A stretch of DNA of 64,000 bases from Ashinkailepas kermadecensis (Eukaryota; Arthropoda; Thecostraca; Neolepadidae), in contig JAOTOM010004141.1 in the NCBI GenBank assembly GCA_034440615.1, forward strand, positions 92,501 to 156,500, written 5' to 3'. Below the pieces are notes generated by a model that was not told where the DNA came from, did not search any database, and saw only the letters and a program-made list of their open reading frames with translations. Made by a program: the position numbers and the translations under genes. Positions within the stretch are counted from its first letter, which is position 1. Every line of letters begins with the position of its first letter. Of this stretch, positions 19,756 to 56,799 are shown one piece after another.

Positions 19756-20130
19756 AGAGTCGAAGGTACACTCCACACTGTCTCGATGGCATGTTGCCAG
19801 AAACTTGTGCGTGTCGAATATTGCTTGTATTTGCAGAGAAGATCCAAGTGAGAGAAGGAACAAACGCATTAGTATTGCGGCCGCGTCGGCGTCACACTTC
19901 CCAACAGCTGTGTTAGTTTTCTCCTGCGCATGCGTCAACTCGCCGCTAGCTACGGCGAGGGGGCGGTGAGTAATGACGCGTTGCGTGCCGCCCCGACGGG
20001 CGAATGTGGAGCGGCGTTTGGGCCATGACGGCAAATGTGGCGCAGCGTTTGGGCCATGACTGTAAACGTGGCGCACTGCTTTGGCCATCACTCTAGCTCG
20101 CCGGTGTGCCGCTGTTGCGGCCCGCTACAG
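19756..20130. other. ~370-bp insertion in the LINE reverse transcriptase
   Basis: The reverse-transcriptase frame stops matching after ISDQILSAC and resumes at LDLSKCFDVIDH. The intervening sequence contains three ~37-bp units with GCGTTTGGGCCATGAC (19995-20095). The boundaries are uncertain and the element type is not recognised. Confidence 0.5.
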
Positions 20131-20519
20131 GCCAATGATCGTGGTGAGATGTCCCTCCTTTGACTCCTGGACTTGAGCAAATGCTTTGATGTGATAGACC
20201 ATTCAAAACTCTTGATCAAATTAAGCCAGCACGGTATTGACACTTCATGGTTTTCGGCCTATCTGAAAGACCATACCCAGAGTGTCAGCCTCACTGACAG
20301 TCTGGGTCGCAGCTTAAAGTCTATTTCACTTTCAAACATCATAGGAGTTTTTCAAGGCTCATCTCTCGGCCCTTTGCTCTACTGCGTCTTCGTCAACAAC
20401 CTCAGTCTGTTCGTTGAAGGCGCAGTAGTCGTTCAGTATGCAGATGACACACACATTTTGGTCACCGGAAACAAAACTCGCATCAAAAGTATCGCTTCCG
20501 AGTTGGAACACGTTCTGGC

Positions 20520-26924: not shown

Positions 26925-27140
26925 ATGGCAGACAGCGCAAGTGAAAGTGATTCTGGATCTGTTGATGGTGGATCAATTTTGATGCCTCCATCTCCAATTA
27001 CAAGAGAGCAATTGCAAAAAAGAATTGAGTCCTTGGTACAGCAGAACCGGGTACTTAAAGTTGAACTGGATACATTCAGGCTTCGAGTGAAGGGGCTGCA
27101 GGAGGAAAATCGTGCTTTGAGGCAGGCATCAGTGAACATT
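26925..27140 (+). CDS. CCDC6: CCDC6 exon 1
   Basis: This exon has 72 codons. It starts MADSASESD and continues into the first heptads ([19 protein letters not shown], then [15 protein letters not shown]). The donor is ATT|GTGAGT at 27141, phase 0. The ATG at 26925 is chosen because the N terminus matches the vertebrate protein from its first residue. No clear promoter motif was seen in the ~460 bp back to the piggyBac element. Confidence 0.93.
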
Positions 27141-39100: not shown

Positions 39101-41384
39101 GCGGCCGTCCATCTGCTGGTATGCGGCGGGTGCGCGGCCGTCCATCTGCTGGTATGCGGCGCGTCCGAATGGCCGGCTAGCTCATCAAATGCTCCGAGTC
39201 ACGTCAAGGGAGGGGAGGGGAGGGGCATCAGACGCCGCCAGAACATCGCCAGCCATCTGACAGACAGACATACGGAAGGGAGGCGCCACCCCGTGATCGG
39301 AACGTCCGCGGCTGCGGCAGCGGCTGGCCAATCACGCGACGGCTGCGCCAGAGGTCACGGCAGAGGTCACGGCCGGTCGGCGTCTGTGTCACCGGGAGCC
39401 GACGCTCGGGTTCTCTGCCAGTGCCAGTTTGGCATCACTAATGATCTCCACGCGTGACTGGGCCAATCTCTTCGGCCGATCTGACGGACAGGTGCTGTGG
39501 AAAAGCGTTCGGTTTCTGTTCGCGGTGCAAGTCGGGACAACAGCAGTATCCGGCGCGCGGCCTTGTTTCGGCTCGGGTGGTGCTGCAGCTCCAGCGACGG
39601 GCATTTTCCACCCGTTGGCCTCGTCGTCTGTCACCAGTATCGATCGCAGCCACAACCCCTCCACGCGAGGGCCCATGGCCTGGCCCGGCCTGGCCCGGCC
39701 TGCAGACCAGCGGTGGCTCAGGTGGCCATCCTCGCCAGCTCCGACCCGATCGCATTGACTGGTTGACTGGTTGACTGAACAGATGGGGAATGCCAGTCGG
39801 CCGGGCTGAATGATGTCGACCCGAATGTGACGGATTTGTCCGGTGATTTCCAATTGTGCCTGGCTATGCCCGTGTACACCCGACGATGCCAGACCATATC
39901 AGACACTACCAGACTATACCCGACAATACCCGACCATACCCGACCATACCCAACCATACCCAACCATACCCAACCATACCTAACCATACCCGACCATACC
40001 CGACCGTACCCGACCATACCCGACCGTACCCGACCATACCCGACCATACCCGACCATGCCCGACCATACCCGACCATGCCCGATTGTGCCCGGTTGTATC
40101 GGATTGCACCGGATTGTACCTGGTAGCACCGAGTACTACCGAATTCTACCCGATTTTACCCGGTGATTTCCTATTCCTATATTGTACACGCCCTTGCACT
40201 TTATCCGGATTTTGTGTCACGAAGATCATAGCCGATTGACGTTGTAACCAGCTTTACTCGACGTAATGCGTGTTGTCCTGCGCGGTCCACGTGAACGTAC
40301 GTGTGGTCCGATACTACACGTGTGGTCCGTTCCTACACCTGTGGTCCGTTGCTACATATGTGGTCCGTTGCTGCACGTGTGGTCCGATACTGCATGTGTG
40401 GTCCGATACTACGCGTGTACTCTGATGCTACACGTGTTGTTCCTATACTATGTGTGGTCCCATGCTACGTGTGTGGTCCGATGCTACATGTATGGTCCGA
40501 TACTACACGTGTGGTCCGATGCTACACGTGTGGTCCAACATTTCGTCACGCGTCAACAATTGATACTTCATGAAATCGCAATGTCTCCAAACACGCATTC
40601 CCGAAGTGTTTCTACCCAGAACTAAAACTAGTCACATTTTGTCCAATATATAGACTGTCTGTATTGGCCCGAAATGCACAGAAGCGCACACTAATCTGAT
40701 TCAGCTGCAACGTGCAGCTGAATCAAAATCACCATTTGCAAACTCGCCATTTGCAAACTCGCATGCTGTTGAGCAACGAGCAGTGAAGAGCGTGCTTGCC
40801 TAAGATGCCAATCGGTGACCTCGTTTGACCTTCGCCTTCCGAACGCTGCCTTGCTGTCGCGATTTGGCAGCTCGCAAACCTGAATGTAACTTGCAGCGGA
40901 TGTCCATGTCAGGTGGGATGCTGCAGAGCCGCCACACTTCTGCCAACACTGCCTCCCTCTGTCTCCAGCTGCGTCACGAGAAGGAACACCTGGAACAGAC
41001 CCTGGAGCAGGAGCAGGAGTGTCTCGTCAACAAGTTGATGAACAAGATCCAGAAGCTGGAGTCGCAGACGCTCAATAAGCAGACCACCCTGGAGCAGCTC
41101 AGGCGTGAAAAGGTATACATGGAAATTAACTTGCCTCAGCAGGTTGTGATGGTTATGGACACAACGTGATCTCGTTGTCGGCGTGCCCCGAAGCATCAAT
41201 TCATCAGTATCGGCAGGTTGTTATCATGTGTTGATCCTAAAGAAGGGGTCATGTAGTCGTGACCTGCCTCCCCTACCCTTACCGCCTATTGGATCGAACT
41301 TAGTAGGTTGGGCATAAATTTTAAGTTTGGGCGAAATGTGTATATATATGTATATATATATATATATATGTATACCTACATATA

Positions 41385-41433
<49 letters not shown>

Positions 41434-41446
41434 GTGTATATATATA

Positions 41447-41518
<72 letters not shown>

Positions 41519-41929
41519 CAAACTTATTTGCACATTCCTCGCTCTGGTGAATTGACCGGGTCCAGGCAGATGGGACAGAACAACTATTAGAAGAACTCCT
41601 GATCGACGATTTGTGAGCCCAGGTGTGGGTGGTCGCTGGCCGCTGTCCATGCGCGCGTTGGTCCGCTGTGATGCAGGTGCTGGCGGCCGTGTTCGCGAAC
41701 TGCGTCACGGCCCCCGCCGGGACCGCAATGTGGCTCGATGGGCGACGGACATATTGACCGGGTGAGGGGGGGGGGGAGGGGGTCCTGGTGCATCCGACCA
41801 GCCAACAACCCTGTGACCCTCCCGGTCTCACAGCAGGGGTGTGTCTAACTCCATGTGCAGCTGGTTGTCAGGTGATTTTATATATATATGTATATATATA
41901 TGTGTATGTATATGTATACGTTATGTATA

Positions 41930-42016
<87 letters not shown>

Positions 42017-45000
42017 AAAATGGGCAACTCATATGCGTTTTTGAAGCACCTTAAAACTACCTTTCTTTCGATCAAGCACACATTTTAGCTTCCTGTTCCT
42101 TGTTAATTGCATTCGGTCTGTGTGGTTTGTCTAAGTTGTTCGATTTATCAATTGGTCCGATTCGATGTGTGGTAGCATCGGTCTGCCCTGCTCATTTCCT
42201 CCTACCTTTGTGGTGTTGGAGCCGCTCACATGTGTGTGTGCCACTGGTGTCTACTGCCATGGTATGCGTAACACATGTCACGACCACACATCCACATACC
42301 AACGATGCGATGATAAAGTTTTACCCTCCCATCACTTCCTGTGTCGTTTTGCCTTTACTTTTTGCATCGTATATCGGCTTGATGTATATTTTAAGTACTT
42401 GCACCAAATAAGCAGGGGTGTCGGCGCCTCAGAGGTTAGGCTGAGCGTCCGGGAGACCAGAGGTGCGGGGTTCGATTCCCCGCGGTGTCTGCCCTCGGGC
42501 TGTCGGGGTGAAATACAAGCGACGCCGCACCTCATCAGCTGCTTTGTGCCTCGTAAGACTACGAACGACACTAAATAAGCACACGAGGCACCCCAAAGGT
42601 CGACTTACAACGTCGTTGTGACGTCATGGTCCTGATCGTAACTGATTATGAAGTTAACAATGAATATTGGAGTGATTATCAGATAAAGTTTATCTAGCTG
42701 GGACTCTGAACATTGCCAGGAGCAGGAGCTGACGCGTGACAAGCACACCAGCACCAGGGGACATGCCGTTGTCTGTCTCCGTGTGGAGTTTGGTAGCTCA
42801 TCAGACCAGGATCCGGCGGTATCAGGAGCAGGATATCGCGGTGCCAAGATTCGGCGGTATCTAGATCTGGTGGTATCTGGATCAGGATCAGAATGCGGCG
42901 GTGTCAAGATCCTTCCGTACTGCGTCTGTTCCGGGGTTCAAGCTTGACCGTCGTCTCCAGGTGGAGCTGGAGAACACGCTGGAGCAGGAGCAAGAGGCGC
43001 TCGTCAACAAACTGTGGAAGAAGATGGAGAAGCTGGAGGCGGAGAAAAGGTAGCCACACTTGCTTCTGAAATCCCCAGGGCGTTCTCCAGGTGGTATCTC
43101 GGGTGTCCCTGTGCTCTCTGTCTGTTTCTCTGTAACGTGATCGTTTTGAACGCTGTGAGCGTAGCACTCAACGAACTTCGTGTGAACCACGAGCAATGCT
43201 TATTGAGCATGTTACGGCGATTCTTCGGCAGTTGAGAGTGCCGCCAAGTGTTAGGCGAGTTAGTCGGCTGCTTGCCAGAAGACAATTGCATTGTTAGAGA
43301 ATTGGAGACTTTCCCAGTTCGGGCGAGAGGTGAAACCTCCACCAAAGTCGAGCGGATAATTTAATCGGACCTCCACGATATGTATATATATATATAGATA
43401 TTTAGATAGAGATATATATATATATATATATACAGGCGCGCACCCGGATTCCGGGGGCCCGGACCGAAAGGGCTGACCGGCTAGGGACTTTGCGGCCCGG
43501 GGCGCACGGAGGTGCCGGGTTTGGGACACGTTATATGTATATAGCCAACCCTTGTATTTACATATATATATTTCAAATACATCATGCATGCATTATATAA
43601 AGGCCTGCGGAGGGGTGGGGCATGACCCGCGGCCTTTTGGGCCTATATATATATATATATGCATGCACAACATATTCTACGAGAGACGAAAGGAGAAAGA
43701 CGGACCCCGTAGTGGTTCAGCCATCGTTACTCGACTGACTAGAGAAATCGCGCTCCCTCGTGTTCACGCAGCCGAAGCCCGTGTTCACACAACCCCAAGA
43801 GAGGTGTGGAAGCACGAATGTGCTTCCAGGGTCTCTCGTAATCTCCGTCATCCATCCCTCTCATCCCATTTCCGTATCCAGCTCGTGCCAGCGTCCCTTT
43901 GTATGTCCTTCATCCAACTCTAACAGCAATCCCTCCACTCTCACGAGTACGTAGGCCAGCTTCCCCTGGTCTATCCGTTCGCTGAGTTTTATCGGTGTAG
44001 TCGCGCCCCCTTGGCCTGTCCTCCCCCCCCCCTACCGTGTTGACGGAGTCCTGAGGGTTGAGGTCCCCCGCCGCACGGTGCCAGTTGTGGTGGGAGGGGA
44101 CGAACACCCCTCTTTGGTCTTGATATCCGGGAGGGGCGTGAGGGCTCGTAGGGCCCCATTCGGGCCAAGCGACAGTCGCCTCGGGCTGTGGGCCTGGGTT
44201 GTGGCCTGGTGCCTGCCGGCCCGGCCGGCTTGGGTCAAGGGGTGGTCGGCGCTGTAGCTCGGCTGGGGTGGTGGTCTCTCTCTTCCGGCCGTGCGGAAGT
44301 GCCGCCTGCCCCGTATAGTTCCGTGGATGTTTGGCGTCCTGCTGTCACGGCAGCAGACGTCCCCTCCCCCACGACGGGCCCTGGCCCGTTTGTGGTGGAA
44401 CACGGGGCCGATACCAAGCACTCTATAGATTCTTCCAAAGCCAAACCAAAACTGGGCGTTTGAGCAAGGAGCCAAACCCCGGCAACCCCAGCGGTAGCCA
44501 CGGCACCGATCCTAACACCCGCAGATGAGTACCGTCCTGCGTTTCCCCCGACCCGTACCGTCCCAACAGGGCGTGGTCCGAACCACCAGGATCCGTCGAA
44601 AGTCGGCAGTGCATCACAGTGCAAAACACCGGAGCCGAGGCCAACGATATTGGCTCGGTTCTGTTGCCGTCAATATGTCGTTCACTGTTCCCGGAAGATA
44701 TTGCGATCTGGACGTCCAGCACTTCAACACCAATACTGCAAAGACACTTGCAGCCCACTGTCGCCAGGCGTGAACGCTGGACGAATGTGAATGTCTTCCG
44801 CTTCTCGATGATGATAGCTGTCGCTATGTATTTCTGCCGGTGTTGAAATTGTCCACATATGATCATTATATTGTATGATTCGTAAATTCCAACGGAGACG
44901 GCTGTCAAATTTCTAGGCGTCTGTCTTGGCAATCGATTAACATATAGGCAGCACTTCACAATGTTTAGAGATAGATGTTTTACGTCTATGAATGTCCTGA

Positions 45001-48000
45001 CGGTGGTTGCACGAACATCATATGATGCCGACAGACCAACCCTGCTGCAACTATATCGCTCCCTTATTCGGTCCAGACTAGATTATGCATGTTTTGTCTA
45101 CGACGGCGCGGCTTCAACCACCAAACGAACACTCCACGCAGTACATCACACAGCACTCCGTATTATCACTGGCACCTTTTGCACCTCACCGATTGCCAGT
45201 CTATTGGTAGAGTCCAACGAACAATGTCTTTCTATGCATCGGGAACTGCTCGGCAAGTGCTGTGCCTGTAAGCTGAGTCAGTTCCCCAATCACCCCACGT
45301 ACCGTTCAGTGCTTTCGCGAAGCATTCTGGCTATGTTCAGAAAAAGACTGGCTGTTTGGTCTGTTCCCTTCTGTGCCAGGAGTGATGCGCTGTTCGAGGA
45401 CATTGATATAGGATTGCGCGGAGTGATGCGCGTCGGATCGATGAAAATCCCACCCTAGACACTGATATCACCAGATATTGACCAGACATTGGGCGCTGTA
45501 TGACCAACGCAGTCGATGCGCCCTTAAGCCCAAATAACCAACCAACCAGATATTGACGTTTCACTGTGATGTCTCAAAAAGCGCGAAGTCGTTTCCGAGA
45601 AACTTAGACTAAAGGCACTGGAGTCTATGTCATGTTTCCGTCATTCTCCAAACACCTACACAGATGGATCTAAGACAGAGTCTGGTGTTGGGTGTGCGTT
45701 TATGATGGGCACAGTAATTATCAGAACGTTCTTTCTACCGGTACACCGATCGGTGTATACCTCTGAGTTGGTTGCCATAGGCAAAGCACTGAGTTTTATT
45801 GAGACAGGTGATGACATGCTGTATATAATTTACACCGATTTCTACAGTAGTCTTACGACTCTACGTTCGTTTTCCTATCGAATCGCACAAGACATTTTAC
45901 ACAAAATAGTTTTCCAAGATACACTGTAACTCGTTGCCGGAACTTACGTTCACTTGTTTATGTGTTTCAGTGGCTAAGTTATGGACGCTAAATGACAAAT
46001 GCAGTCAATGCGCCCCTATGCTACAATAACTAACTAAGGCGAAAGACCAAAGACAAGCGATAGAGAGACCAGGCATTGGAGACAGACTGGCAACCATTGG
46101 TGTCAGTTTGAGAAATTGGGTGAGCGGCAAAATGGCTTTTTGACGGCCAAACCTACTCCGAAAACCATTTGTATCTAGTGTTCGCCCATAGGCTAAATGG
46201 TTAAGCTTCAATCTTCAGCCATGGCCCCCTTCAGCGTTGGTGAGATCAATGATTGAGGGGGCCAGTTGCCCCCCCCCCCTCCCTTAGCGTATACAACGTG
46301 ACACCCCTGCTGACAACGTTATTTTATGGCAAAGGTATGTGCTCAGGTTCTGTAAGAGGCTGTCCTAAGATGGCTGCTGAACTTCAATTCAACATGTTAA
46401 GATCGTTTCTGAGTTCAAACTGAACCCTTCTCCAAGGATGTGCGGAGGACTAGGTCATTCTAGGTCACATGCCTGTGCTAATCGAGGAAATGTTTTCCAC
46501 CTGGGTGAGTAGGACATGATATTGGGCAGGCTATGTCCACTGTGTCGGCCAGGCTACTGTCCGGTGAGGCTGCTCACTGTGTCGGCCAGGCTATTGTCCG
46601 GTAAGACTGTACACTGTGTCGGCCAGACTATTGTCCGGTAAGCTGGAGCGGGTGGAACGAGGCGTCGAGTCTGAGCCTGCCTCGCCCGGCGCGGCGCCGA
46701 CCGACCCTTCTACCGCGCCTCGCGCCGCGTCGACTAGTGACGAGCGCGAGCGGGACTCGTCCACGGCCGGCGACCTCAGCCTCTACATCCAGCAGCTGCG
46801 CCGCGAGGTCAATGCACTCAGAAGCCAGCTGCAGCACTCGCGAAGGGAACGTGAGTCGAACTGGGGACGGCAGATGGAAGTGTAAATCGAACTGGGGACG
46901 GCAGATGGAAGTGTGAGTCGGACTGGGGACGACAGATGGAAGTGTTAATCGGACTAGGGACGGCAGATGGAAGTGTGAGTCGGACTGGGGACGGCAGATG
47001 GAAGTGTGAGTCGGACTGGGGACGACAGATGGAAGTGTGAGTCGGACTGGGGACGGCAGATGGAAGTGTGAGTCGGACTGGGGACGACAGATGGAAGTGT
47101 GAGTCGGACTGGGGGCGACAGATTGGAGTGTGAGCCGGACTTGGGAAAACATGAAAGCGTGAGTCAGTTTGGGGATGGCAGATGGAAGCATTTGCGATGT
47201 TGAATGTCGGGGACGGATATGTCACTGCATAATTGAAGGTACAAAATGTACAAAATGGCCATCTCAGTTACAGATGCGTATCTGGTAGATGAAAGACTGT
47301 CCAGTGTAGCATTGATTTACCATTTTATTGCAGAAATGAAACCCGTTGAGTTTCTTTAATAGGTGCACTGCTCGCTGTGGCACAGCTCCTAAGTATAACA
47401 TGCCCCCCACCCCACCACACCTAACCGGTTTTCAGTCTTCCTCGTTGACTTCTCAGGGTGTGGGCAGCGAATTGACGTTGAAGAATGTAATTTGATGAGA
47501 TGTCGAGAACGTTTTGAAACATTTTCGGGCACAATAAAAAGGCAAGCAAATTGGGTGCCCCTCCTCTGCATACACGCACGCATACTCGCTGATCTATTAT
47601 TGCTCCCGGGCCTTCATCGGGTAGCATTGCTCCACGGAACGTCACCGGGTGCGTTGTCCCCCGTGACGTTGCCGGGTGACAGTGGTGCACTCGTCGTGAC
47701 CGGATGCGCACCGCCGGCGGCAGATTCAGTGAAGATGGCCCAGTACGTGCAGGAGGAGCGCCAGATCCGCGAGGAGAACCAGCGCCTTCAGAGGCGGCTG
47801 CAGGTGGAGATGGACCGGCGCGAGACGCTGTGTCGCCACCTGTCGGAGTCCGAGTCCAGGTGAGAGTCGAACGCCGAGTCATAGTCGGGGCAAGCGGAAA
47901 CGCTGAGTCGGAGTCGTGGTCGGAGGAACACGCTGAGCCGTAGTCAAGGTGAGAGTCTCAGAATGGACGACTATTTGAGTTTCTCTCACAAGTACGATTT

Positions 48001-51000
48001 GCTGTTGTTTATCCAGGAAGGTAAAGACATTGCACTGGTTTGGGCATGGTGAATAAGTAAGTCTGGCCAAAACCTGAAACCTAGGTAGAAAGGAACACTG
48101 TTATGGGCGCTATATGATCAACATGGTCGACGCGCCCTAAAGCCCAAATAACTAACTAAGGTGAGAGTCAAACGCACTTAGCACTTTTGTGCTGATGTAC
48201 ATTTGTGTTCACGCACTTTTGGGCCTGCGTATCTTTGCGGGCAGTATCTTAAGTACATTTCCGCACGCGTGCAGTTATCCGGTTGGCCGAAGCCTGACAG
48301 ATTGATGCATGGTGCTGACGTAACTGTATGTCCGCCAGTCTGGATATGGATGAGGGTCGACAGCTAGATGTAGTGCTGATCTCACCGTATGTCTGTCCGT
48401 CCGCCAGTCTAGAGCTGGACGAGGACCGGCAGGTAGATGTAGAGTGCTGATCTCACTGTGTGTCCGCCAGTCTGGAGATGGACGAGGACCGACAGGTAGA
48501 TGTAGAGTGCCGATCTCACTGTGTGTCCGCCAGTCTAGAGATGGACGAGGACCGACAGGTAGATGTAGAGTGCTGATCTCACCGTATGTCTGTCCGTCCG
48601 CCAGTCTAGAGATGGACGAGGGTAGACAGGTATATGTAGAGTGCCGATCTCACTGTATGTCCGCCAGTCTGGAGATGGACGAGGACCGGCAGGTAGATGT
48701 AGAGTGCTGATCTCACTGTATGTCCGCCAGTATGGAGATGGATGAGGGCCGACAGCTAGATGTAGAGTGCTGATCTCACCGTATGGCTGTCCGTCCGCCA
48801 GTCTAGAGATGGACGAGGACCGGGAGATAGATGTAGATTGCTGATCTCACTGTATGTCCGCCAGTCTGGAGATGGACGAGGACCGACAAGTAGATGTAGT
48901 GCTGATCTCACTGTATGTCCGCCAGTCTGGAGATGGACGAGGACCGGCAGGTAGATGTAGAGTGCTGATCTCACCGTTTGTCTGTCAGTCTGGAGATGAA
49001 CGAGGACCGACAGGTAGATGTGTGCTGATCTCACCGTTTGTCCGCCAGTCTGGAGATGGACGAGGACCGGCAGATAGATGTGTGCTGATCTCACTGTATG
49101 TCCGCCAGTCTGGAGATGGACGAGGACCGACAGATGGATGTGTGCTGATCTCACTGTATGTCCGCCAGTCTGGAGATGGACGAGAACCGACAGCTAGATG
49201 TAGAGTGCTGATCTCACTGTATGTCCGCCAGTCTGGAGATGGACGAGGACCGGCAGATAGATTTGTGCTGATCTCACTGTATGTCCGCCAGTCTGGAGAT
49301 GGACGAGGACCGGCAGATAGATTTGTGCTGATCTCACTGTATGTCCGCCAGTCTGGAGATGGACGAGGACCGACAGATGGATGTGTGCTGATCTCACTGT
49401 ATGTCCGCCAGTCTGGAGATGGACGAGGACCGGCAGGTGGATGTAGAGTGCTGATCTCACTGTATGTCCGCCAGTCTGGAGATGGACGAGGACCGACAGC
49501 TAGATGTAGAGTGCTGATCTCACTGTATGTCCGCCAGTCTGGAGATGGACGAGGACCGGCAGATAGATGTGTGCTGATCTCACTGTATGTCCGCCAGTCT
49601 GGAGATGGACGAGGACCGACAGATGGATGTGTGCTGATCTCACTGTATGTCCGCCAGTCTGGAGATGGACGAGGACCGACAGCTAGATGTAGAGTGCTGA
49701 TCTCACTGTATGTCCGCCAGTCTGGAGATGGACGAGGACCGGCAGATGGATGTGTGCTGATCTCACTGTATGTCCGCCAGTCTGGAGATGGACGAGGACT
49801 GACAGGTAGATGTGTGCTGATCTCACTGTATGTCCGCCAGCCTGGAGATGGACGAGGACCGGCAGGTAGATGTAGAGTGCTGATCTCACTGTATGTCTGC
49901 CAGTCTGGAGATGGACGAGCACCGGCAGGTAGATGTGTGCTGATCTCAGCGTTTGTCCGCCAGTCTGGAGATGGACGAGGACCGACAGATGGATGTGTGC
50001 TGATCTCACTGTATGTCCGCCAGTCTGGAGATGGACGAGGACCGACAGATGGATGTGTGCTGATCTCACTGTATGTCCGCCAGTCTGGAGATGGACGAGG
50101 ACCGACAGATGGATGTGTGCTGATCTCACTGCATGTCCGCCAGTCTGGAGATGGACGAGGACCGACAGATGGATGTGTGCTGATCTCACGCATGCATTGG
50201 AGATGGAGAAGAGGAGAGGTGTTGATACTGCATGTCCGCCATCTGGAGATGGACAGACCGACAGATGGATGTGTGCTGATCTCACTGTATGTCCGCCAGT
50301 CTGGAGATGGACGAGACCGACAGCTAGATGTAGTGCTGATCTCACTGTATGTCTGCCAGTCTGGAGATGGACAGGACCGACAGCTGATGTAAGTGCTGAT
50401 CTCACTGTATGTCTGCCAGCTGGAGATGGACGACCGACAGTGATGTAGTGCTGATCTCACTTGTCTGCCAGTCTAGATGACACACCGCAGGTAGATGTGT
50501 GCGATTACGTTTGTCCGCCAGTCTGGAGATGGACGAAGACCGGCAGATGGATGTGTGCTGATCTCACTGTATGTCCGCCAGTCTGGAGATGGACGAGGAC
50601 CGACAGATGGATGTGTGCTGATCTCACTGTATGTCCGCCAGTCTGGAGATGGACGAGGACCGACAGATGGATGGCGTGGCGATTTCCCGCGGTCGCACTG
50701 TCTCCAGCCCCGGACCGGTGGCGCTCGTCTCTCCGGGAGCGTCACGGCCACTCAGTCCAGGTACACGTTCGACCGACAGGTCGTTCTGTAGATCCATCTG
50801 GAGCAGAGTTGGAAGGACAGGCTGTTCCTGAATTTTGTGTTCACGTTCAGAGCATTATCCACCCCAGAACATTATAAATCTCATTTTCCTCATTTGGGGG
50901 TTAAATGGTGCTGTTTGAATGAGCTATTTTCGATGAAGGGTTCAAGAGTGAAAGTGCCAACCTAAAATTCTGATGTCACAAGCTAGAAGAAAATTATAAT

Positions 51001-54000
51001 CTCCATATTTGACTATCCACACATTTTTCTCTACTCATCCAGGTATGCAGGGTACAAATCCGATCCTCATCTGGAGTGGCCAGTACAAGAAGATAGAAGC
51101 GATATACCCCCCCCCCCTACCTAGCTGTCGGAGTCATCGTAGAAGAACGAAAGCTTGCGTTTTGTTTAGTCTTGTTGCATGATATCCCAGTTCAGGGACG
51201 CAAAATGACCACAGCAGTCGACGCGCCCTAAAGCCCCCCAGTTCAGGGACAGTGTCCTCCCAGTTCAAGTACATTGACCCTCACCCAGACCAGGTGCACC
51301 CACCATTCCCTTTGCCTAGAGAGCCTAATCCTCCCCTAGTCCAGAAAGACTGATCCTCTGCCAGTCCAGGTACTCTGACACTACCAGCATAGGTATACCG
51401 ACAAATCTCCCAGTGCCGGTGTACTCACCCTCTCCCAGTATAGGTATACCGACAAATATCCCAGTATCGGTGTACTCACCGTCCCCCAGTATAGGTATAC
51501 CGGCAAATATCACAGTGCCGGTGTACTCACCCTTTCTCAGATATGGCACACACACGCCCTTTAAACTGCATATTTGATGCGCATTGGTCTAAGTTGTATA
51601 ACTTGTATATATAAGTTATATAAACGACACTGACAGTAAGATATAACCGTCCTTAAGCGAAAGATGTTCATATTTCATGCACTTTGAATAATTAATTAAT
51701 CAAACATATTTTTTGTCACAAGTGTTATAACCGCCAGAGATTGTTCCCGTGTCACTGATGCTGAGACGTAACACGAGTAATTCGAAGACGATTGTTTCAC
51801 ATGGGATGCGCTCCGAAGCGCCAGTCACGCTCCAGCATTGCGAGTGCACCCACACCATGCTTCGGAAACTATTGTGTGTGCACGCAGTGGCGCGGCACAA
51901 CGGCAGCAGCTAACCGCGCCAAAACCACACCACGCGCCAAAACCGCACCACGCGCCAAAACCAAACCACGCGCCAAAACCAAACCAACCAGCCAGCCGGC
52001 TGGGATTTAGGTGCTCCGTACCTGGCGCGAACGTGGTGTGTTGTGGGCAGATTGTTGTCGTGGGACTACTCAGTGACTATGGCCTATGCAATTGCCCACT
52101 GCAGTTACTCTGTTTCGCGTGAGCGTTCTCGCCAGAGAAGAACTGCATCGTTTTTCTTGTTATTTTGCTTTGTAGCATCCTGAAGTGTGGAATGTTGTTC
52201 GATGCTAGTTTCTGAAGGTGTGTCTGCTGGGAGCTAACTGGGCCCATTCCAAAGAATATAGTCTTAGCTGGTGATTGTCACTTGCGGATGCTGGTGAGCG
52301 CGCGAACGTGACGTTGTTCGCCTGGGGTTCCCTGCCGTTTCTGTTGCTGGCGGTCCTACTTGACCGTACGTGGCTCGTCAGTTCTGTACCGGAGTCTCCG
52401 TCGTGAAATGACATGGTGCGACCTGACCTGGCCTGACCTGAGCAGGCCGGGACATGTTTGGACCGCCTTCGCCGGCAGCGCCTCGCTGCCAGAACTGCGG
52501 GTCCGTGGTGCACCTGCCGCGGCCCAGACCGTTGGTGGTGCCATCTGTCGGTGGCGCCGGTAACGACAAGTTCGTCAAGCCGACGGCGCCGGCCATCAGT
52601 ATCGGCGCGCCGGCCATGTCTCCTGGCCGGCCGATGCAGGTGGGTCAGTGGTAAACTGATTGTTTTTTGTTAGGTGTGGAGTGTGGCCGATGTCGAATAG
52701 AGTACAGTTGGATGTTGACAGTTGTTATGAAAACATGTTGTTTTATCAAATATAAAAAGATGAAATATCAAGTATTGTAAGTTTTTTTTGCAGCTGAATT
52801 TCGAGCGAAAGCGTACTTATGAGTGTATGTTTTTGTTTCCTTTGGAAAACATCCACTATATACATGTTTATATTAACCATAACGATAACAATACCATGCT
52901 ATCAACAAATGATGTAGAACAGACCACATGATAGGCAATCCCTTTACCTGGAATTATGTTACCGAAAGTGTGTGTCACGAACCGTAATGGTGAGCATGAG
53001 CATAATACTTCTTTACACCAATGAAGAAGCACGATGTCGATCCTTTATAAAACATGTCTGTTCAGTGTTGAGGAAGTGGTATATTCCACCATTTCCCGAA
53101 ACATTTATCACCGAGGTGGCCACAGTCTGAGCTAGTCTGCGGGTGCCGGCGACGCTCACCTGGCACTTCTGGGTGGACGAGTTGTTTGGTGCGGCACTTC
53201 GTGGATGTGTTGCCGTGAAAATAGATCTAGCGACATGAATGAGTTACAAAACAGTAAAACTGAGCCTAAAGTTCATTTTCATCTTTTATCGCAAGGCTTT
53301 TTGGGGGCTGGATTGCCGAGTGGTTATGGTGTTGAGCTCTGGATACCAAGGTTCCCGGGTTCAGCACTCGCACCACTCAGGACATTTCCCAATCCCGCGG
53401 CCCACCGGCGAAGCAGAGTGGGCGGCGCCGTTAGCCGTGATCGTGCACAAAGTACGTCGGGAAACACCCAATAAACAAACAGCAAGGCTTTTTGTACCCC
53501 AAAATGTATGGGTCCAATCAGCTTCAATCACTGGGTTTCAAGCTATGTTATTGGCTGCCATGGTAACTTGTTTTCAACAGCAACAGCCTATGCAGAAGAT
53601 ACCTCCCATGTGACTATTTTGCGATCCATTCTCATTAGCCATCCGTTGTTACGGACATGCAATGTCTGGCTGAGGCTTGGCGTCTGATAGTGAGCGGTCC
53701 TACCTGTGGAAGGTTCATGCAGTGCACAATGTTTATTTTCTTGGTCTGGTGCATGTGGAGCATCCAATGCGCACCTCCTCTTTATAGCAGATTTTGCAGA
53801 GTTTCTACTTGTTGCTTTAACACCGATTAACGTTTTTCTTTGCGTTATGGTAGCGACAGGTCCGTCACAATCGGCTAAACCCTAATCATGAATATATCAA
53901 TCAGTCACAATCGGCTACCGGGTCATTTGTGTCGCGCAGATCTCCAGGTCATTTTACCTATCTTTGTTTGCGTTATGGTAGTGACAGGCCTCGGCAACCT

Positions 54001-55975
54001 GGACACTTGTGTCGGGCAGATTTCCAGATCATTTCACGTATCTGTTTGCGTGTGCATCATGAGCGATGTTTATCCTGCTCCTGGTTTATTCTGTGTTGCA
54101 GGAGCGAATTGTTGAGGTTATATTATTGGAAGGGTACAGGAACGCCAAAGTTGCGCAATTCAGCTTGCATTGGTGTGGCAAGCACCAATGATTCCGTATT
54201 CAAATGCGTGATTATTCGTGAGGCCCAATCACATTGGTGAGCCTCGAGCTCTTCCAACGAGGTGTGAGGCCCACACATTGTAGTAACCATTGGTGGGACT
54301 CGAGCCCCTCCAACGAGGTGTAAGGCCCGCACATTGTGGTAACCTTTGGTGGGACTCGAGCCCCTCCAATGGAGTGTGAAACCCCACACATGACAATAGC
54401 CAAATATTAACCTTGTATGTCGCATTCCTATTCAGTGGGCACCGGGATTTGAAGCGCTTCCATTGTCATCACTGGGCGCAAAATGACCTCAGTAGTCGAT
54501 GCGCCCTAAAACCCAAATGACTAACTAACTCTTGTCATCACATCAGTTACTAGTCACAGTGACGCATTCAACGTGGGGCTATGTGACGTCATTACAACGC
54601 CACCGGTGAAGGACTAAGCCTGTTCTTGCAGAGTGGTTGCCGACGCACCATAAACACAACCGGAATGTTATGATGTTTGGCACTGCTGTGCGTGAAGCTT
54701 TTATTTATGAACAACACACGTCCGCAATACTCTTCGACATTGAAAAGGCACATCATGTAGCGTGACATAATGTCATTCTCGCAAATATTTTTCACTATGG
54801 TATTTTAGGATGTACGGGTAAAATAAACCCGCCACTAGATATGCGTTGAAAGTGTTTGACTGTAAAATACTTACCTCGTATCTCACAATTCCCCACCACC
54901 AATCGTATGGTGGCGTATTTAACAAACACCTGGCGGAGTGTTCCCTGTTTGCTCGCCGTTCCTCAGCGATACCGGTTTGTATGCCGAATGTTTCAGTGGG
55001 TAAGGGATAAGGACAAATTAATCCATATGTGGGATACTGGCAATCTGTTGTTGGGAACAGGAGAATGAAAGTGGTTTGTCAGAGGAGAAGGAGCTCAACA
55101 TTTGCAAGAGGTGTGTCGGAAATGGATGCTGCTTGCAACGTCAATTTTCGAGCTCAGATAGGCTATATAGTTCGATATCGTGTGGCGATGTGCAATGAGC
55201 CATCGCTGACGCACCCTAAAACCCCAATAATCATCATCATCATCAATGAGCCATCGCTTTGACGGAATTTGCAGGGCCGTGTGACATTTTGGAGTAGGGT
55301 GCGACACAGCAGTCAATAAGACAGCAACGGAGGGCACCATTGGCAAACAGAGTGTCAGCCGCACATTTTGAACCCACACCAGCGTTGCGCCATCACCATG
55401 CTGTTGCACCGTTAGTCTGCGCCCCTCCGCCGTTATTCTGCGTGCTCCCCCTGCGCCCTCTCCCCGTCCCCCCTCCCACATCGGTGCCTCCACACCACGG
55501 AGCGGCTGGGCACGGTCGAACCTCGGCGAGCATTGACCGGGCAGGCAGGCGGTGTCTGTCAATGCCGCCGCACGTGGACGCGTCACGGCTCCACCGGAAG
55601 GATTGTGCTCGTGTGAAGCGGGATCACGGGCGACGCGGCCGTACTCCCGATGCGGTCCGACAGTGTCGGCCCCGGCGCTTTTGTCGATTTAGGTGGTGGG
55701 CGGGCAACAATGGAAATCCCCCGCTTGCCACAAACACGCTCTCTTGTGCTGGTTCTCACGCGTTGGTTAGGGTGCGTGAGCGTCCACTAAGCGTCTTATC
55801 AATCAGACAATGTTTCGAGATTTAACGCTGCATCGTGCATCCAGTGGAAAACAGAATGAGGACTGGTGCAGCTCAGCCGATCGGGAGTCAGAAAACTGGG
55901 CAAGACGTCCTTTTGACCAGTGCAGTCGATTTTCACGAACGATGGCCAGTGCTCAGGTCATACTGTGGTCAAGAA

Positions 55976-56047
<72 letters not shown>

Positions 56048-56203
56048 TTCCCTTTTTTTTTTTTTTTTTTGACGCCTTGACCGTCTGTTGTTTGTTGCCA
56101 GATGTCGCCGACACTGCTGGCTCGCGCCGCCACCCCGACGGACCCGCCCGCATCGCCATCGGCCACAGTTCCGGGCTCGCCCATGGATACGACTCGCACC
56201 TAA
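26925..56203 (+). CDS. CCDC6: coiled-coil domain-containing protein 6 (CCDC6), 9 coding exons
   Basis: Coding exons are 26925-27140, 32430-32579, 40969-41112, 42961-43049, 46627-46850, 47730-47859, 50642-50760, 52446-52639 and 56102-56203. They total 1368 nt and 455 aa, against 474 aa in human. Phases agree at every join and all introns are GT-AG. The protein starts [11 protein letters not shown] as in vertebrates. It has a long coiled coil (residues ~30-320, with LEQEQE heptads), then SLEMDED, then a Ser/Pro-rich tail. In the family CCDC6 is a phosphoprotein linked to DNA-damage checkpoint control, and its coiled coil is best known from RET fusions. The introns are crowded with repeats, many seeded at the exon boundaries. 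The assignment is very secure; the exact edges of exons 5, 6 and 9 are by-eye calls. Confidence 0.94.
27150..31520 (+). repeat. ~1-kb segmental tandem repeats in CCDC6 intron 1
   Basis: A unit of roughly 1.0-1.3 kb occurs about four times. Landmark GTAATATCATGCTC-like strings lie near 27405, 28367, 29649 and 30634. A second landmark (AGAACGTCTCTTAAAACTG type) lies near 27880, 28830 and 31125. The third copy is truncated. Within the first copy a ~92-bp piece beginning CAGAGTGGGAAACTTACTTTCC is duplicated next to the exon 1 donor. The copies are diverged by substitutions and indels. Confidence 0.75.
30217..30266 (+). repeat. tail-only retroposed insertion, 14-bp target duplication
   Basis: A 50-bp segment with GATGCGCCCCTAAACC-type sequence (AATGCGCCCCTAAACC here) is flanked by perfect ACTGCCAGTCAGCT at 30203-30216 and 30267-30280. 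Confidence 0.85.
31525..32340 (+). other. CCDC6 intron 1, AT-rich, with one tail repeat
   Basis: This is mostly featureless intronic sequence. A copy of the shared tail repeat lies at about 31925-31985 (GGGCGCTATATGACC...AAATAACTAACTAACC) and a copy of the 1-2 kb dispersed AT-rich repeat lies near 31700-31780. No coding similarity was seen. Confidence 0.5.
32344..32400 (+). repeat. tail-only insertion just upstream of CCDC6 exon 2
   Basis: A 57-bp tail repeat (TGGGCGCTATATG...GCCCAAATGAGTAACTAAC) is flanked by AATGTGACGAATAA on the left and AATGTGACCAATAA on the right. Its final TAACTAAC places a CTAAC branch-point motif (branch A at 32399) 30 nt before the exon 2 acceptor AG. Confidence 0.75.
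32430..32579 (+). CDS. CCDC6: CCDC6 exon 2
   Basis: This exon has 50 codons, residues 73-122: [15 protein letters not shown], then [19 protein letters not shown], then [15 protein letters not shown]. It is in the coiled coil and closely matches the vertebrate protein. The acceptor is TTCCTCTCTGCAG and the donor is CAG|GTGGGT at 32580; both phases are 0. Confidence 0.95.
32610..32825 (+). mobile_element. tRNA-derived SINE with a small insertion
   Basis: A tRNA-like head (AGCGCAGTGGTTAAATGAGC, then a B-box-like GGGGTTTGATTCC) is followed by a body like the SINE at 42415-42572. A ~40-bp piece with GATGTGCCCCTAAGTCC interrupts it, and GTCTGGGAGACC repeats on both sides of that piece. It lies right after CCDC6 exon 2. 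Confidence 0.6.
32830..33735 (+). other. CCDC6 intron 2, no feature recognised
   Basis: A GC-rich patch of GTGACG(C/T) repeats lies at 33030-33210, then AT-rich sequence. Neither coding similarity nor element ends were seen. Confidence 0.45.
33739..33904 (+). mobile_element. complete tRNA-derived SINE with 12-bp target duplication
   Basis: A 166-bp element is flanked by perfect CCTCACCAACTA at 33727-33738 and 33905-33916. The first ~75 nt resemble a tRNA, with A box TGGTCTAGGGGT, a CTCACAA anticodon-loop-like segment reminiscent of tRNA-Val, and B box GGTTCGAGTC. The 3' part (GACGCTACATGACTCAACGGTCGACGTGTCG, then AACC repeats) is a diverged version of the tail shared with a LINE. Acceptor-stem pairing is poor, so it is a SINE and not a working tRNA gene. 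Confidence 0.85.
34636..35625 (+). mobile_element. 5'-truncated LINE, same family as 18.1-22.7 kb
   Basis: Fragments with [39 protein letters not shown] and [18 protein letters not shown] match the 3' half of the LINE at 18-22.7 kb. The 3' UTRs also match (TAATAGCCACCAGTCTATT versus TAATAGCCACGAGTTTATT) and end here in TCTG repeats. Frameshifts make it non-functional. Confidence 0.85.
35630..37895 (+). other. CCDC6 intron 2, one coding-repeat remnant on minus strand
   Basis: At 36302-36541 the minus strand holds a short open stretch with [20 protein letters not shown] that resembles the plus-strand fragment at 5640-5790. Nothing else in this stretch could be assigned. Confidence 0.35.
37900..38098 (+). 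mobile_element. tRNA-derived SINE
   Basis: The head GCGGTAGCTCAGTCGGTAGG is a good tRNA A-box region, and GGTGGGTTCTGATCCCACAACC resembles a T arm. The 3' part (GACACTATGTGGCTCAGCAGTCGAATGTGCCGTAACG) is a diverged copy of the shared tail. No clear target duplication was found. Confidence 0.7.
38165..38490. repeat. 41-bp minisatellite, about seven units
   Basis: Units of CTGACAGCCAGTTGGGTCTG followed by ACATTGAGTGGAGCGGCAGCT are near-identical, pointing to recent expansion. A ~19-bp CCACCGG(T/C)CAGGCTTCTCC array follows at 38518-38690. Confidence 0.85.
38700..39170. repeat. 33-bp GC-rich minisatellite, ~14 units
   Basis: Nearly perfect 33-bp units (CTGCTGGTATGCGGCGGGTG, then CGCGGCCGTCCAT) run for about 460 bp. 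The unit length is a multiple of three, so several frames stay open on both strands. These are shadows and not genes. Confidence 0.9.
39885..40150. repeat. 10-bp minisatellite (ACCATACCCG)
   Basis: About 25 diverging copies of a decamer close to ACCATACCCG lie in CCDC6 intron 2. Confidence 0.85.
40295..40540. repeat. ~19-bp minisatellite
   Basis: About a dozen diverged copies of CTACACGTGTGGTCCGATA occupy this stretch. Confidence 0.8.
40697..40725. repeat. short perfect hairpin
   Basis: TGATTCAGCTGCA and its reverse complement form 13-bp arms around an ACG loop, 245 bp before CCDC6 exon 3. No terminator or RNA role can be claimed. Confidence 0.6.
40969..41112 (+). CDS. CCDC6: CCDC6 exon 3
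   Basis: This exon has 48 codons, residues 123-170: [17 protein letters not shown], then [18 protein letters not shown], then [13 protein letters not shown]. It is the repeated LEQEQE segment of the CCDC6 coiled coil. The acceptor is CTCTGTCTCCAG and the donor is AAAAG|GTATAC at 41113; both phases are 0. Confidence 0.95.
41341..41515. repeat. TA-rich microsatellite
   Basis: A long TA dinucleotide tract with occasional G and C. The apparent Tyr-Ile frames over it are artefacts. Confidence 0.95.
41877..42012. repeat. TA microsatellite
   Basis: A second TA tract, with uninterrupted TA from about 41937 to 42012. Confidence 0.95.
42415..42572 (+). mobile_element. tRNA-derived SINE with 9-bp target duplication
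   Basis: A 158-bp element is flanked by AAATAAGCA at 42406-42414 and 42573-42581. The head has AGGTTAGGCTGAGCGTCC and a perfect T-arm-like GGGGTTCGATTCCCCG. It is the family of the copy at 32610-32825, and it lacks the GGGCGC tail. Confidence 0.8.
42800..42915. repeat. ~30-bp repeats before CCDC6 exon 4
   Basis: Four diverged units with GATC(C/T)GG(C/T)GGTATC occur shortly upstream of the exon 4 acceptor. Unlike the arrays at other exons they do not include the acceptor itself. Confidence 0.55.
42961..43049 (+). CDS. CCDC6: CCDC6 exon 4
   Basis: This 89-nt exon encodes residues 171-200 ([18 protein letters not shown], then [12 protein letters not shown]). It matches the segment of the vertebrate protein that ends EAEKR. 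The acceptor is CGTCGTCTCCAG and the donor is AAAAG|GTAGCC at 43050. It ends in phase 2, splitting the arginine codon. Confidence 0.94.
43375..44880 (+). other. CCDC6 intron 4, short TA tracts, no gene seen
   Basis: Short TA tracts occur at 43380-43432 and 43643-43665. The rest is GC-rich in places (44.0-44.5 kb) without recognisable coding sequence. A LINE begins at about 44884. Confidence 0.45.
44884..45930 (+). mobile_element. LINE 3' half with RNase H domain
   Basis: The end of a reverse transcriptase is visible ([38 protein letters not shown]). An RNase H domain follows ([44 protein letters not shown]). It resembles the element at 56.8-59.4 kb. It is truncated and frameshifted, and a tail-only insertion at 45483-45545 splits it. 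The RNase H domain points to the I/R1-type groups of LINEs. Confidence 0.85.
45483..45545 (+). repeat. tail-only retroposed insertion, 12-bp target duplication
   Basis: A 63-bp segment (ATTGGGCGCTG...GATGCGCCCTTAAGCCC, then AACC repeats) lies between perfect CCAGATATTGAC copies at 45471-45482 and 45546-45557. It interrupts a LINE. Confidence 0.9.
45985..46036 (+). repeat. copy of the shared 3' tail repeat
   Basis: ATGGACGCTAAATGAC...AATGCGCCCC and a CTAACTAA end match the shared tail with substitutions. The target duplication is not clear. Confidence 0.6.
46527..46640 (+). repeat. 37-bp repeats of the CCDC6 exon 5 acceptor
   Basis: GTGTCGGCCAG|(G/A)CTATTGTCCGGTAAG occurs with acceptor AGs ending at 46552, 46589 and 46626, exactly 37 bp apart. 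A partial copy ends at 46529. Only the last continues into exon 5. Two of the copies are followed 11 nt later by GTGAGG or GTAAGA, so they also look like minute exons with both splice sites. Confidence 0.8.
46627..46850 (+). CDS. CCDC6: CCDC6 exon 5
   Basis: A 224-nt exon encodes residues 200-275: [12 protein letters not shown], a Ser/Pro/Thr-rich insert, then [20 protein letters not shown]. This matches the vertebrate order (EKL, Ser/Pro-rich stretch, then a coiled coil ending AAQLQHS). The join to exon 4 completes an arginine codon. The donor is GGGAAC|GTGAGT at 46851, phase 1. Read-through meets TAA at 46883. Confidence 0.88.
46851..47195 (+). repeat. 31-bp array of the CCDC6 exon 5 donor
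   Basis: The unit is GTGAGTCGGACTGGGGACGG, then CAGATGGAAGT (31 bp). Units start at 46851, 46882, 46913, 46944, 46975, 47006, 47037, 47068, 47099 and 47130. Most keep GTGAGT at the start, while two read GTAAAT and GTTAAT. The first unit is the real exon 5 donor, and the last exon bases (GAAGGGAAC) resemble the unit end (GATGGAAGT). About ten potential donors are thus lined up. Confidence 0.85.
47730..47859 (+). CDS. CCDC6: CCDC6 exon 6
   Basis: This exon encodes [19 protein letters not shown], then [18 protein letters not shown], then SESES. It matches KMAQYLEEERHMREENLRL and the following residues of the vertebrate protein. The acceptor is either ATTCAG (exon from 47730) or GGCGGCAG (from 47724). 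Both keep the frame, so the choice is unresolved. The donor is TCCAG|GTGAGA at 47860, phase 2. Confidence 0.9.
47860..48180 (+). repeat. diverged copies of the CCDC6 exon 6 donor region
   Basis: AAGGTGAGAGTC-type strings recur at about 47950 and 48160 after the true donor at 47860. In between lie ~29-bp units with ACGC(C/T)GAG(T/C)C and TAGTC. A shared-tail insertion (48104-48159) separates the last copy. Confidence 0.55.
48104..48159 (+). repeat. copy of the shared 3' tail repeat
   Basis: GGGCGCTATATGATC...GACGCGCCCTAAAGCCC with an AACT tail closely matches the copy at 32344-32400. It lies within the exon 6 donor repeats. Confidence 0.75.
48331..50675 (+). repeat. 60/63-bp array of the CCDC6 exon 7 acceptor, ~39 units
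   Basis: Each unit reads TGCTGATCTCACTGTATGTC, then CGCCAG|, then TCTGGAGATGGACGAGGACC, then G(A/G)CAG(A/G)T(A/G)GATGT. It therefore contains a branch-point-like CTGAT/CTCAC, an acceptor AG and the first ~25-37 nt of exon 7 (S)[10 protein letters not shown] positions start at 48338 and include 49048, 49108, 49168, 49231 and 49291. The last, 50641, opens the true exon. About 37 of 39 units keep the AG; those near 50210 and 50250 lost it. Units with CAGGTAGAT also carry a donor consensus 25 nt downstream. In most units the exon frame ends at TGA within 13-14 codons. The central part is highly homogeneous. Confidence 0.93.
50642..50760 (+). CDS. CCDC6: CCDC6 exon 7
   Basis: This exon has 119 nt, residues 318-358: [18 protein letters not shown], then [19 protein letters not shown], then LSPG. 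It corresponds to SLEMDDERYFNE through RTVSSP to RPISPG in vertebrates. The acceptor is the last member of the 60-bp array (CCGCCAG ending 50641). The donor is GTCCAG|GTACAC at 50761, phase 1. It is the only unit in which the [10 protein letters not shown] frame runs on without the TGA. Confidence 0.9.
50880..51195 (+). other. CCDC6 intron 7, no feature recognised
   Basis: This is ordinary intronic sequence with a C homopolymer near 51108-51117. Confidence 0.4.
51199..51236 (+). repeat. 38-bp tail-only insertion, 13-bp target duplication
   Basis: CGCAAAATGACC...GACGCGCCCTAAAGCCC lies between perfect CCCAGTTCAGGGA copies at 51186-51198 and 51237-51249. It is among the shortest retroposed tails in the window. 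Confidence 0.85.
51237..51535 (+). repeat. diverged ~28-bp array resembling the CCDC6 exon 7 donor
   Basis: Units have the form CCCAGT(C/A)(C/T)AGGTA(C/T)(A/T)C, for example CCAGTCCAGGTACTCTGAC near 51360 and CCCAGTATAGGTATACCG near 51390, 51440 and 51495. The true donor at 50761 reads TCAGTCCAG|GTACACG. The copies lie ~500-750 bp downstream of it. Confidence 0.55.
51925..51990. repeat. ~16-bp tandem repeat
   Basis: About four units of ACGCGCCAAAACC(A/G)CACC type. Confidence 0.75.
52446..52639 (+). CDS. CCDC6: CCDC6 exon 8
   Basis: A 194-nt exon encodes residues 358-422: [19 protein letters not shown], a Pro-rich stretch, then [19 protein letters not shown] and SPGRPMQ. It aligns with the SPDKFKRPTPPPSP region of the vertebrate tail. 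The acceptor is CCTGAGCAG ending 52445 and the donor is ATGCAG|GTGGGT at 52640, phase 0. Confidence 0.85.
52680..53300 (+). other. CCDC6 intron 8, no feature recognised
   Basis: AT-rich intronic sequence without recognisable elements. Confidence 0.4.
53302..53490 (+). mobile_element. tRNA-derived SINE
   Basis: GATTGCCGAGTGGTTATGGTG (A-box region) and CCCGGGTTCAGCACTCG (B-box region) form a tRNA-like head reminiscent of tRNA-Leu/Ser. The body contains CCCAATCCCGCGGCCCACCGG. GCAAGGCTTTTTG repeats near both ends (53291 and 53482), consistent with a target duplication. Confidence 0.7.
54232..54396. repeat. ~58-bp tandem repeat, three units
   Basis: Units share TTGGTGGGACTCGAGCCCCT, then CCAACGAGGTGTGAGGCCC and ACACATTGT. 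Confidence 0.8.
54473..54531 (+). repeat. tail-only retroposed insertion, 10-bp target duplication
   Basis: TGGGCGCAAAATGACC...GATGCGCCCTAAAACCC with an AACT tail lies between TTGTCATCAC copies at 54463-54472 and 54532-54541. Confidence 0.8.
55208..55244 (+). repeat. 37-bp tail-only insertion, 14-bp target duplication
   Basis: Only GACGCACCCTAAAACCCC and an AATAATCATC tail remain between perfect AATGAGCCATCGCT copies at 55194-55207 and 55245-55258. It is the shortest case in the window and shows that the last ~20 nt plus tail are enough to be retroposed. Confidence 0.85.
55977..56071. repeat. TA microsatellite followed by poly-T
   Basis: A TA tract (55977-56043) precedes a CCC-T18-type tract (56051-56070) that serves as the pyrimidine tract of the last CCDC6 exon. 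Confidence 0.9.
56102..56203 (+). CDS. CCDC6: CCDC6 exon 9 (C terminus)
   Basis: After PMQ| of exon 8 the phase 0 continuation is [18 protein letters not shown], then [15 protein letters not shown] and TAA (56201-56203). The acceptor GTTTGTTGCCAG is preceded by a long T tract. The Ser/Pro/Thr-rich end fits the short Pro/Ser/Thr-rich tail of the family (PTVPSAATSQPTP in vertebrates). There is little sequence identity to prove it, so this is the least certain exon. Confidence 0.72.
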   Translation: MSPTLLARAATPTDPPASPSATVPGSPMDTTRT

Positions 56204-56249: not shown

Positions 56250-56395
56250 CTTGCCCTATCCCGCTCCCGCCCCGCCCTCCCCGTCCCCGTCCCCCCCGCC
56301 CTCCCCGTCCACGTCTCCGCCCTCCCCGTCCACGTCCCCGCCCTCCCCGTCCACGTCCCCGCCCTCCCCGTCCACGTCCCCGCCCCTCCCCCTCC
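56250..56395. repeat. ~18-bp C-rich tandem repeat in the CCDC6 3' UTR
   Basis: Units of CCGCCCTCCCCGTCCACGTC type follow ~50 bp after the CCDC6 stop codon. Confidence 0.8.
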
Positions 56396-56799
56396 CACGC
56401 TCCCTCCACCGCCCCGCCGCTCGGCCGCGCCACCCGGTGATATTTGAGGGTGGCGCGTGCCTCCGATCCGTTTACCCATCGCTCGGATATGTGTCACTCT
56501 CCGGTCGTCGCGCGCTCTTTCCACGCTCCGAGGTAGCTGCACCGCCGCCTGTGCGGGCGACGCAGCAGTGCTTCCACCTCGCGGCGGCCGCCGCTACTGC
56601 TACTTACGCCGCTCGGCGCGTGGCGGAGAGTTTGAGTGGTTCGATCAATACAGTACTGTGTCTGCCGCACCCTTTGCGTTTGTCTCCAGCAGGTGAGGTG
56701 ACAGGCATGCAAGGCCGCGAGGTTGGTGACTGATTGGAAGCCCGATGACTAGAACGTGTGGAAAACGACAGCGACACTAGGGAGAGGTGAAAATGCGTG

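Follow-up and report, generated by a model that had tools for sequence, protein, structure and literature searches.

A 39-unit array of exon 7 acceptors in a barnacle CCDC6 gene, probably a neutral minisatellite derived from the boundary of intron 6 and exon 7

When an intron ends in dozens of repeats of its 3' splice site, these copies may serve to regulate splicing or may be a neutral minisatellite that originated at a splice junction, the two possibilities offered by the original prediction for the CCDC6 gene of Ashinkailepas kermadecensis. The window analysed here is a single stretch of 64,000 nucleotides. The earlier identification of the gene was right: nine coding exons were joined into a coding sequence of 1374 bases (457 codons plus a stop) without internal stops and with GT/AG borders in all eight introns. 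Among the matches listed (best 120 of 900), the closest were the CCDC6 proteins of Amphibalanus amphitrite (397 identities in 464 alignment columns, 8 gaps) and Pollicipes pollicipes (366 identities in 459 columns, 48 gaps), the next being an unnamed protein at 59%; in the protein search that gave the Amphibalanus match, scoring was limited to the 7995 candidates with the most shared words. With barnacle proteins as the best matches, a lamprey or amphioxus source was dropped. A partial product matched the Pfam family DUF2046 (conserved protein H4) at 2.6e-65. As had been proposed, the exon 6 donor (47860) joined in phase with the acceptor at 50640-50641 within the unbroken 457-codon frame, and the Amphibalanus and Pollicipes proteins read SESSLDMDEERQ at this junction. 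The Pollicipes model is without about 46 residues that exon 5 (46627-46850) and a similar stretch of Amphibalanus have, perhaps an annotation gap.

The predicted tandem array of about 39 exon 7 acceptors was recovered by Tandem Repeats Finder (rows 48312-50673, 48399-50189 and 50227-50673, with scores of 3104, 2553 and 593), and wrap-around alignment to a 60-base unit divided it into 39 acceptor-bearing units, preceded by a decayed part-unit that is counted as unit 1. Chance need not be considered for an array of this kind. The end of the span first proposed (48331 to 50675) stood, while its start was refined, with a weak continuation upstream of 48331 and units from 48312; the number of copies agreed by alignment, the exact count being approximate with units 32-38 noisy. 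The typical unit begins with the 27 bases at the end of intron 6, from branch site to AG, and continues into about 32 bases of exon 7. Most of the 39 units contain the CCGCCAG acceptor and a branch-site-like CTGAT, which lies about 20 bases upstream of the AG in the typical unit, and the 60/63-bp unit with CTGAT, CTCAC, CCGCCAG and the start of exon 7 was thus found as described. Outside the noisy stretch, the 32 units measured 60 (n = 16), 63 (n = 11), 61 (n = 2), 71 (n = 2) and 69 bases (n = 1). The AG was kept in 37 of the 39 units, the exceptions being units 32 and 33, and the full exon 7 was reached only from the last AG (50640-50641), in the exon-proximal copy, which bore out both parts of the earlier claim. 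Because this innermost copy alone joins the coding exon, the array copies lie on the intron side. The repeated acceptors account for about 85% of intron 6 (Table 1).

Table 1. Coordinates of the CCDC6 gene, the junction arrays and the retrotransposon remains in the window
Feature	Position	Strand	Basis or remark
CCDC6 gene, nine coding exons	26925..56203	+	tblastn of Pollicipes protein; spliced coding sequence with GT/AG
CCDC6 exons 1-5	26925-27140, 32430-32579, 40969-41112, 42961-43049, 46627-46850	+	
CCDC6 exons 6-9	47724-47859, 50642-50760, 52446-52639, 56102-56203	+	
CCDC6 exon 6	47724..47859	+	Donor GT at 47860-47861
CCDC6 exon 7 (ends RPLSPG), 119 bases	50642..50760	+	Amphibalanus and Pollicipes CCDC6 cross the junction in-frame
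Exon 7 acceptor array, 39 tandem units, the last being the real junction	48312..50675	+	Tandem Repeats Finder, wrap-around alignment
Decayed part-unit, upstream edge of the array	48284..48311	+	Wrap-around alignment, unit 1
Units 32-38, read-error-like, with both lost AGs	50177..50554	+	All 46 deletions of the 39 units
Exon 5 acceptor array, 37-base unit, 2.8 copies	46538..46642	+	Tandem Repeats Finder
Exon 5 donor array, 31-base unit, 11 copies	46851..47188	+	Tandem Repeats Finder; starts exactly at the donor
Exon 6 donor weak repeats, AGGTGAGAGTC	47858..48169	+	At 47858, 47947 and 48159
Exon 7 donor-like decayed repeats, CAGTCCAGGTAC	51180..51540	+	CAGTCCAGGTAC at 50753 and 51362
51-base array within the exon 7 donor-like repeats	51384-51540	+	
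Non-LTR retrotransposon remains	17996-18622, 19384-20628, 7336-7950, 44886-45926	minus for 7336-7950	Pfam, except 44886-45926

The array is probably a neutral minisatellite, a mirage of the acceptor type, that arose by tandem duplication of the CCDC6 intron 6/exon 7 junction. The duplicated segment would have comprised 27 bases of the intron and about 32 of the exon, its copies would then have multiplied by slippage or unequal exchange, and the upstream ones would be removed together with intron 6 in splicing. This reading is favoured because the unit spans the junction, carrying both of its halves, and because the exon-proximal copy is the real junction of an intact coding sequence.

The farther a unit lay from the exon, the more it diverged from the unit consensus (Spearman rho = -0.67, P = 2e-5; 32 of the 39 units, which are not independent), and the splice-signal columns of the unit showed no significant excess of conservation over the rest (2/8 variable columns versus 27/52; P = 0.15, with low power). 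Both results favour a neutral array, in which new copies may arise near the exon, where selection would keep the template clean, while older ones decay upstream. Predicted RNA folding, tried for two stretches, was no better than that of shuffles (z = 1.24 and 0.70), which points the same way; on this result, an RNA structure hiding the decoys was rejected. Between the two possibilities raised at the outset, the divergence gradient and the ordinary folding thus support the neutral one, and the regulatory one fits less well. In translation, the first complete unit has LDMDE in common with the two barnacle proteins and RQL in common with that of Amphibalanus; weakly, from these few sites, this unit may represent a fossil of an older exon.

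Six of the 36 decoy AGs (units 14, 18, 22, 29, 30 and 39) were identical to the real site at 59/59 bases (-27 to +32), so the choice of the last AG is not explicable by local sequence. A further 17 decoys matched at 55-58 of the 59 positions, giving 23 with at least 55/59 in this ungapped comparison, and 13 were less similar. The decoys would most likely be passed over through exon definition, an established principle by which the donor at 50760 would pair with the nearest acceptor to yield the 119-base exon, any decoy giving a longer one (179, 239 and 289 bases for the next three upstream). Decoy frames were read on from exon 6 without further splicing. As anticipated for most copies, 27 of the 36 stopped after 13-14 codons, each at the TGA that lies within the CTGAT of the unit that follows; the other nine ran for 7, 9, 9, 20, 35, 35, 37, 135 and 509 codons. 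The stop preceded the exon 7 donor in 35/36 decoys, with the exception of unit 37, within the noisy stretch. Since a stop would arise before the end of the exon, nonsense-mediated decay would probably remove RNAs mis-spliced at these 35 decoys. As a point against the neutral reading, a GT was present at base 26 of the exon part in 12 of the 32 less noisy units, preceded by CAG in 11 of them, and these 12 units, with 25 exon bases before the GT, could in principle act as 25-base exons.

So many good decoys, nearly all followed by a stop ahead of the donor, are also what would be seen if the array were a splice-regulating device, with decoys competing for the splicing machinery and CCDC6 output lowered or timed by unproductive splicing and decay. 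However, stops are expected anyway in a long non-coding reading, and the splice signals were not significantly more conserved than the remainder of the unit; we regard such a device as unlikely. The production of truncated or alternative isoforms, that is, CCDC6 proteins ending just past the coiled coil or carrying a 509-codon repeat tail from the decoy AG at 48863-48864 (the longest frame of the 36), appears even less probable. Although the open frames that they require are present, they amount to only 13-14 extra codons in the 27 decoys mentioned, and the 509-codon tail crosses the noisy stretch, so that even its frame is uncertain. Barnacle proteins named in the best 120 of 475 and the best 120 of 900 matches were Pollicipes and Amphibalanus models only, which also argues against truncated isoforms, in a database where many proteins are unnamed and RNA from the same species may simply be absent.

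The noisy stretch itself, which the original prediction did not remark on, bears on the reliability of the assembly. Compared with the unit, 46/46 deletions fell in units 32-38 (378 bases), which are flanked by near-perfect units, and none in the other 32 units. This distribution suggests unpolished long-read sequence, and makes both the copy number of the array and the two lost AGs uncertain. Deletions confined to seven consecutive units of 39, with near-perfect neighbours, as in unpolished long reads, would also fit an array whose copies had been inflated or scrambled by the assembler. That the array is such an artefact is nevertheless very improbable: the other 32 units vary by substitutions and by ordered lengths (60, 63 and 71 bases), which are hardly assembler-made, and a similar layout was found at other CCDC6 junctions.

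In exon 5, on which the original prediction was silent, the acceptor (3 copies) and the donor (10-11 copies) both lie in arrays. The acceptor array contains two decoy AGs (ending at 46552 and 46589) and the real AG (46626), whereas in the donor array a GT starts units 1-10, seven of these ten having GTGAGT. That two other CCDC6 junctions sit in arrays extending into introns favours a neutral origin of the exon 7 array, as does the richness of the window in minisatellites (39 merged arrays, 13.4% of its bases). Both acceptor decoys of exon 5 and 7/8 of the donor-like decoys tested led to a stop, while the donor-like decoy at 46882 was open through exon 6 in a shifted frame; these stops are uninformative because they are expected in such readings.

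Whether arrays are enriched at junctions was found to depend on the null, and the enrichment is at best suggestive. In the position control, the exon 7 acceptor alone was extreme (0.009-0.013 of random sites as high). Both junctions of exon 5 and the donor of exon 6 were equalled by 0.081-0.184 of random sites, and, leaving aside the exon 7 donor as well, the other 11/16 junctions were ordinary. The repeats at the exon 6 donor, where AGGTGAGAGTC has three exact occurrences in all on the + strand of the 64-kb window, were not beyond chance in this control (0.149-0.184 of random sites as high), and neither were those at the exon 7 donor (0.163-0.200). By a 30-base criterion, a copy was present at 3, 2 and 2 of the 16 junctions (at 70, 77 and 85%) versus 0.214, 0.164 and 0.138 for random sites, with no excess. 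Random placement was performed with 39 arrays, obtained by merging by hand the overlapping rows among 63 Tandem Repeats Finder rows, and allowed an exon overlap of up to 40 bases: 3/39 arrays touched a junction versus 0.42 expected (P = 0.008), the expectation for the 22 arrays of the gene alone being 0.54 (P = 0.015). Counting two or more junction arrays gave P = 0.067, a fairer value than 0.008 because one of the three arrays was given beforehand.

Sequence relationships among the arrays were also compared. A core common to the units of the exon 5 donor array and the exon 7 array (24/28 columns) was dismissed as chance, its consensus score of 27 being reached in 43/200 shuffled sets (812 comparisons); for one hand-picked variant the figure had been 0/3000 shuffles. 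Neither exon 5 array was among the results of a profile search outside the exon 7 array. The likeness between the exon 5 and exon 7 acceptors was attained in 10/2000 shuffles, with no correction for the 28 pairs compared; a higher score was obtained for the exon 4/exon 9 pair (20 versus 18). The exon 5 decoy acceptor at 46555-46589 and the exon 7 acceptor at 50607-50641 share GCTG..CTCACTG..TGTC.GCCAG, a likeness attained in 0/2000 shuffles, uncorrected for the picking of that copy.

Boundary minisatellites have been described before, which the original prediction did not mention: mirages are intron-exon boundary repeats in the amphioxus globin, Adh3 and TnC genes, to which PGBD5 repeats are likened (PMC3087553, PMC3902484). 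These papers report that the BflGb6 haplotypes vary in mirage copy number, propose a role of mirages in intron gain, and take the globin RT-PCR and Adh3 data to show that regular splicing is undisturbed (PMC3087553, PMC3902484). The exon 7 array likewise consists of tandem minisatellite-like repeats whose unit spans the boundary, keeps the splice signal in many copies (AG in 37/39) and includes the authentic junction (AG at 50640-50641) as one copy of the series. In its anatomy it is a large new case of this already described structure, and a neutral origin is favoured because the amphioxus mirages share its anatomy, reportedly without interfering in regular splicing.

The amphioxus mirages (Adh3, TnC, BflGb6 and BflGb9) are similar in being boundary-spanning minisatellite repeats at acceptors or donors, with the AG or GT often kept, but their host is a cephalochordate, whereas that of the CCDC6 array is a crustacean. 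Their copies are fewer, with 6 and 3 units in the BflGb6 haplotypes (PMC3087553) and, in the two versions of PGBD5, repeat numbers of 2 or 7 and of 3 or 6 (PMC3902484), compared with 39 in CCDC6. In CCDC6, both junctions of one exon and a third junction are involved within a single gene. The amphioxus globins are backed by RT-PCR and haplotypes, whereas the CCDC6 array is known from the sequence of one genome assembly alone. Turri et al. 1995 is said to be the original study of the minisatellite splice donors of human IFI6 (6-16). This minisatellite, as cited in PMC4526556, gives multiple splice donors, two downstream repeat units being used to produce three mRNA species. According to that account, IFI6 is alike in having a splice site repeated by a minisatellite inside a gene and differs in that donors are repeated, not the acceptor as in the exon 7 array, the exon 5 donor array being closer to it. 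The IFI6 repeat donors are said to be used in mRNA, whereas the CCDC6 decoys are sites predicted from genomic sequence.

A limited search of open-licence literature found no barnacle report of a boundary minisatellite, and the minisatellite literature retrieved for barnacles contained no title on barnacle genomes; the barnacle genome papers covered, in part, were PMC8917513, PMC8416341 and PMC11331182. The CCDC6 array would extend mirages, which in the searched literature belong to amphioxus only, to a crustacean, and it agrees with the view that introns can grow through duplication of their junctions. If splicing is normal, the cell tells one acceptor by context alone from six 59-base-identical copies, 17 others matching at 55-58 of 59 bases and 13 less similar ones, and the locus would be a natural test of exon definition versus first-come kinetic choice. 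A bolder proposal, which we hold only tentatively and consider rather doubtful, is that barnacles, independently of amphioxus, tend genome-wide to make junction minisatellites, and that the 39-copy array, with its six 59-base-identical decoys, shows the acceptor to be chosen by where it lies with respect to the donor and not by local sequence. If such a barnacle-wide tendency were true, junction arrays would be natural libraries for tests of exon definition and of the seeding of new introns.

Several other features were observed in the window. Among the retrotransposon remains, Pfam detected an endonuclease family (PF03372) at 17996 and reverse transcriptase (PF00078) at 20164 and 7336, the PF00078 match at 19384 being below the curated cut-off; the stretch at 44886-45926 looks by eye like reverse transcriptase plus RNase H and had no Pfam match. 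An open frame of 372 amino acids at 24237-25352 matched DDE_Tnp_1_7, Transposase IS4 (PF13843, 7.3e-39), a family which we take to be piggyBac-like. Six + strand copies of GTCGACGCGCCCTAAAGCCC (up to 3 mismatches) lie at 7299, 32366, 45512, 48126, 51217 and 54495, those at 48126 and 51217 within CCDC6 introns 6 and 7, and are perhaps part of a short interspersed element. A tRNA-like sequence at 33746-33806 (Rfam RF00005, 36.1 bits), the sole Rfam match at gathering score in the window, is either a tRNA gene or a short interspersed element. In intron 2, three distinct tandem arrays with units of 41, 23 and 33 bases lie back to back at 38186-39161, the 33-base one having 14 copies with 98% matching. 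Finally, a 21-base CCCCGCCCTCCCCGTCCACGT array at 56270-56404 starts 66 bases past the CCDC6 stop codon, likely in the 3' untranslated region.
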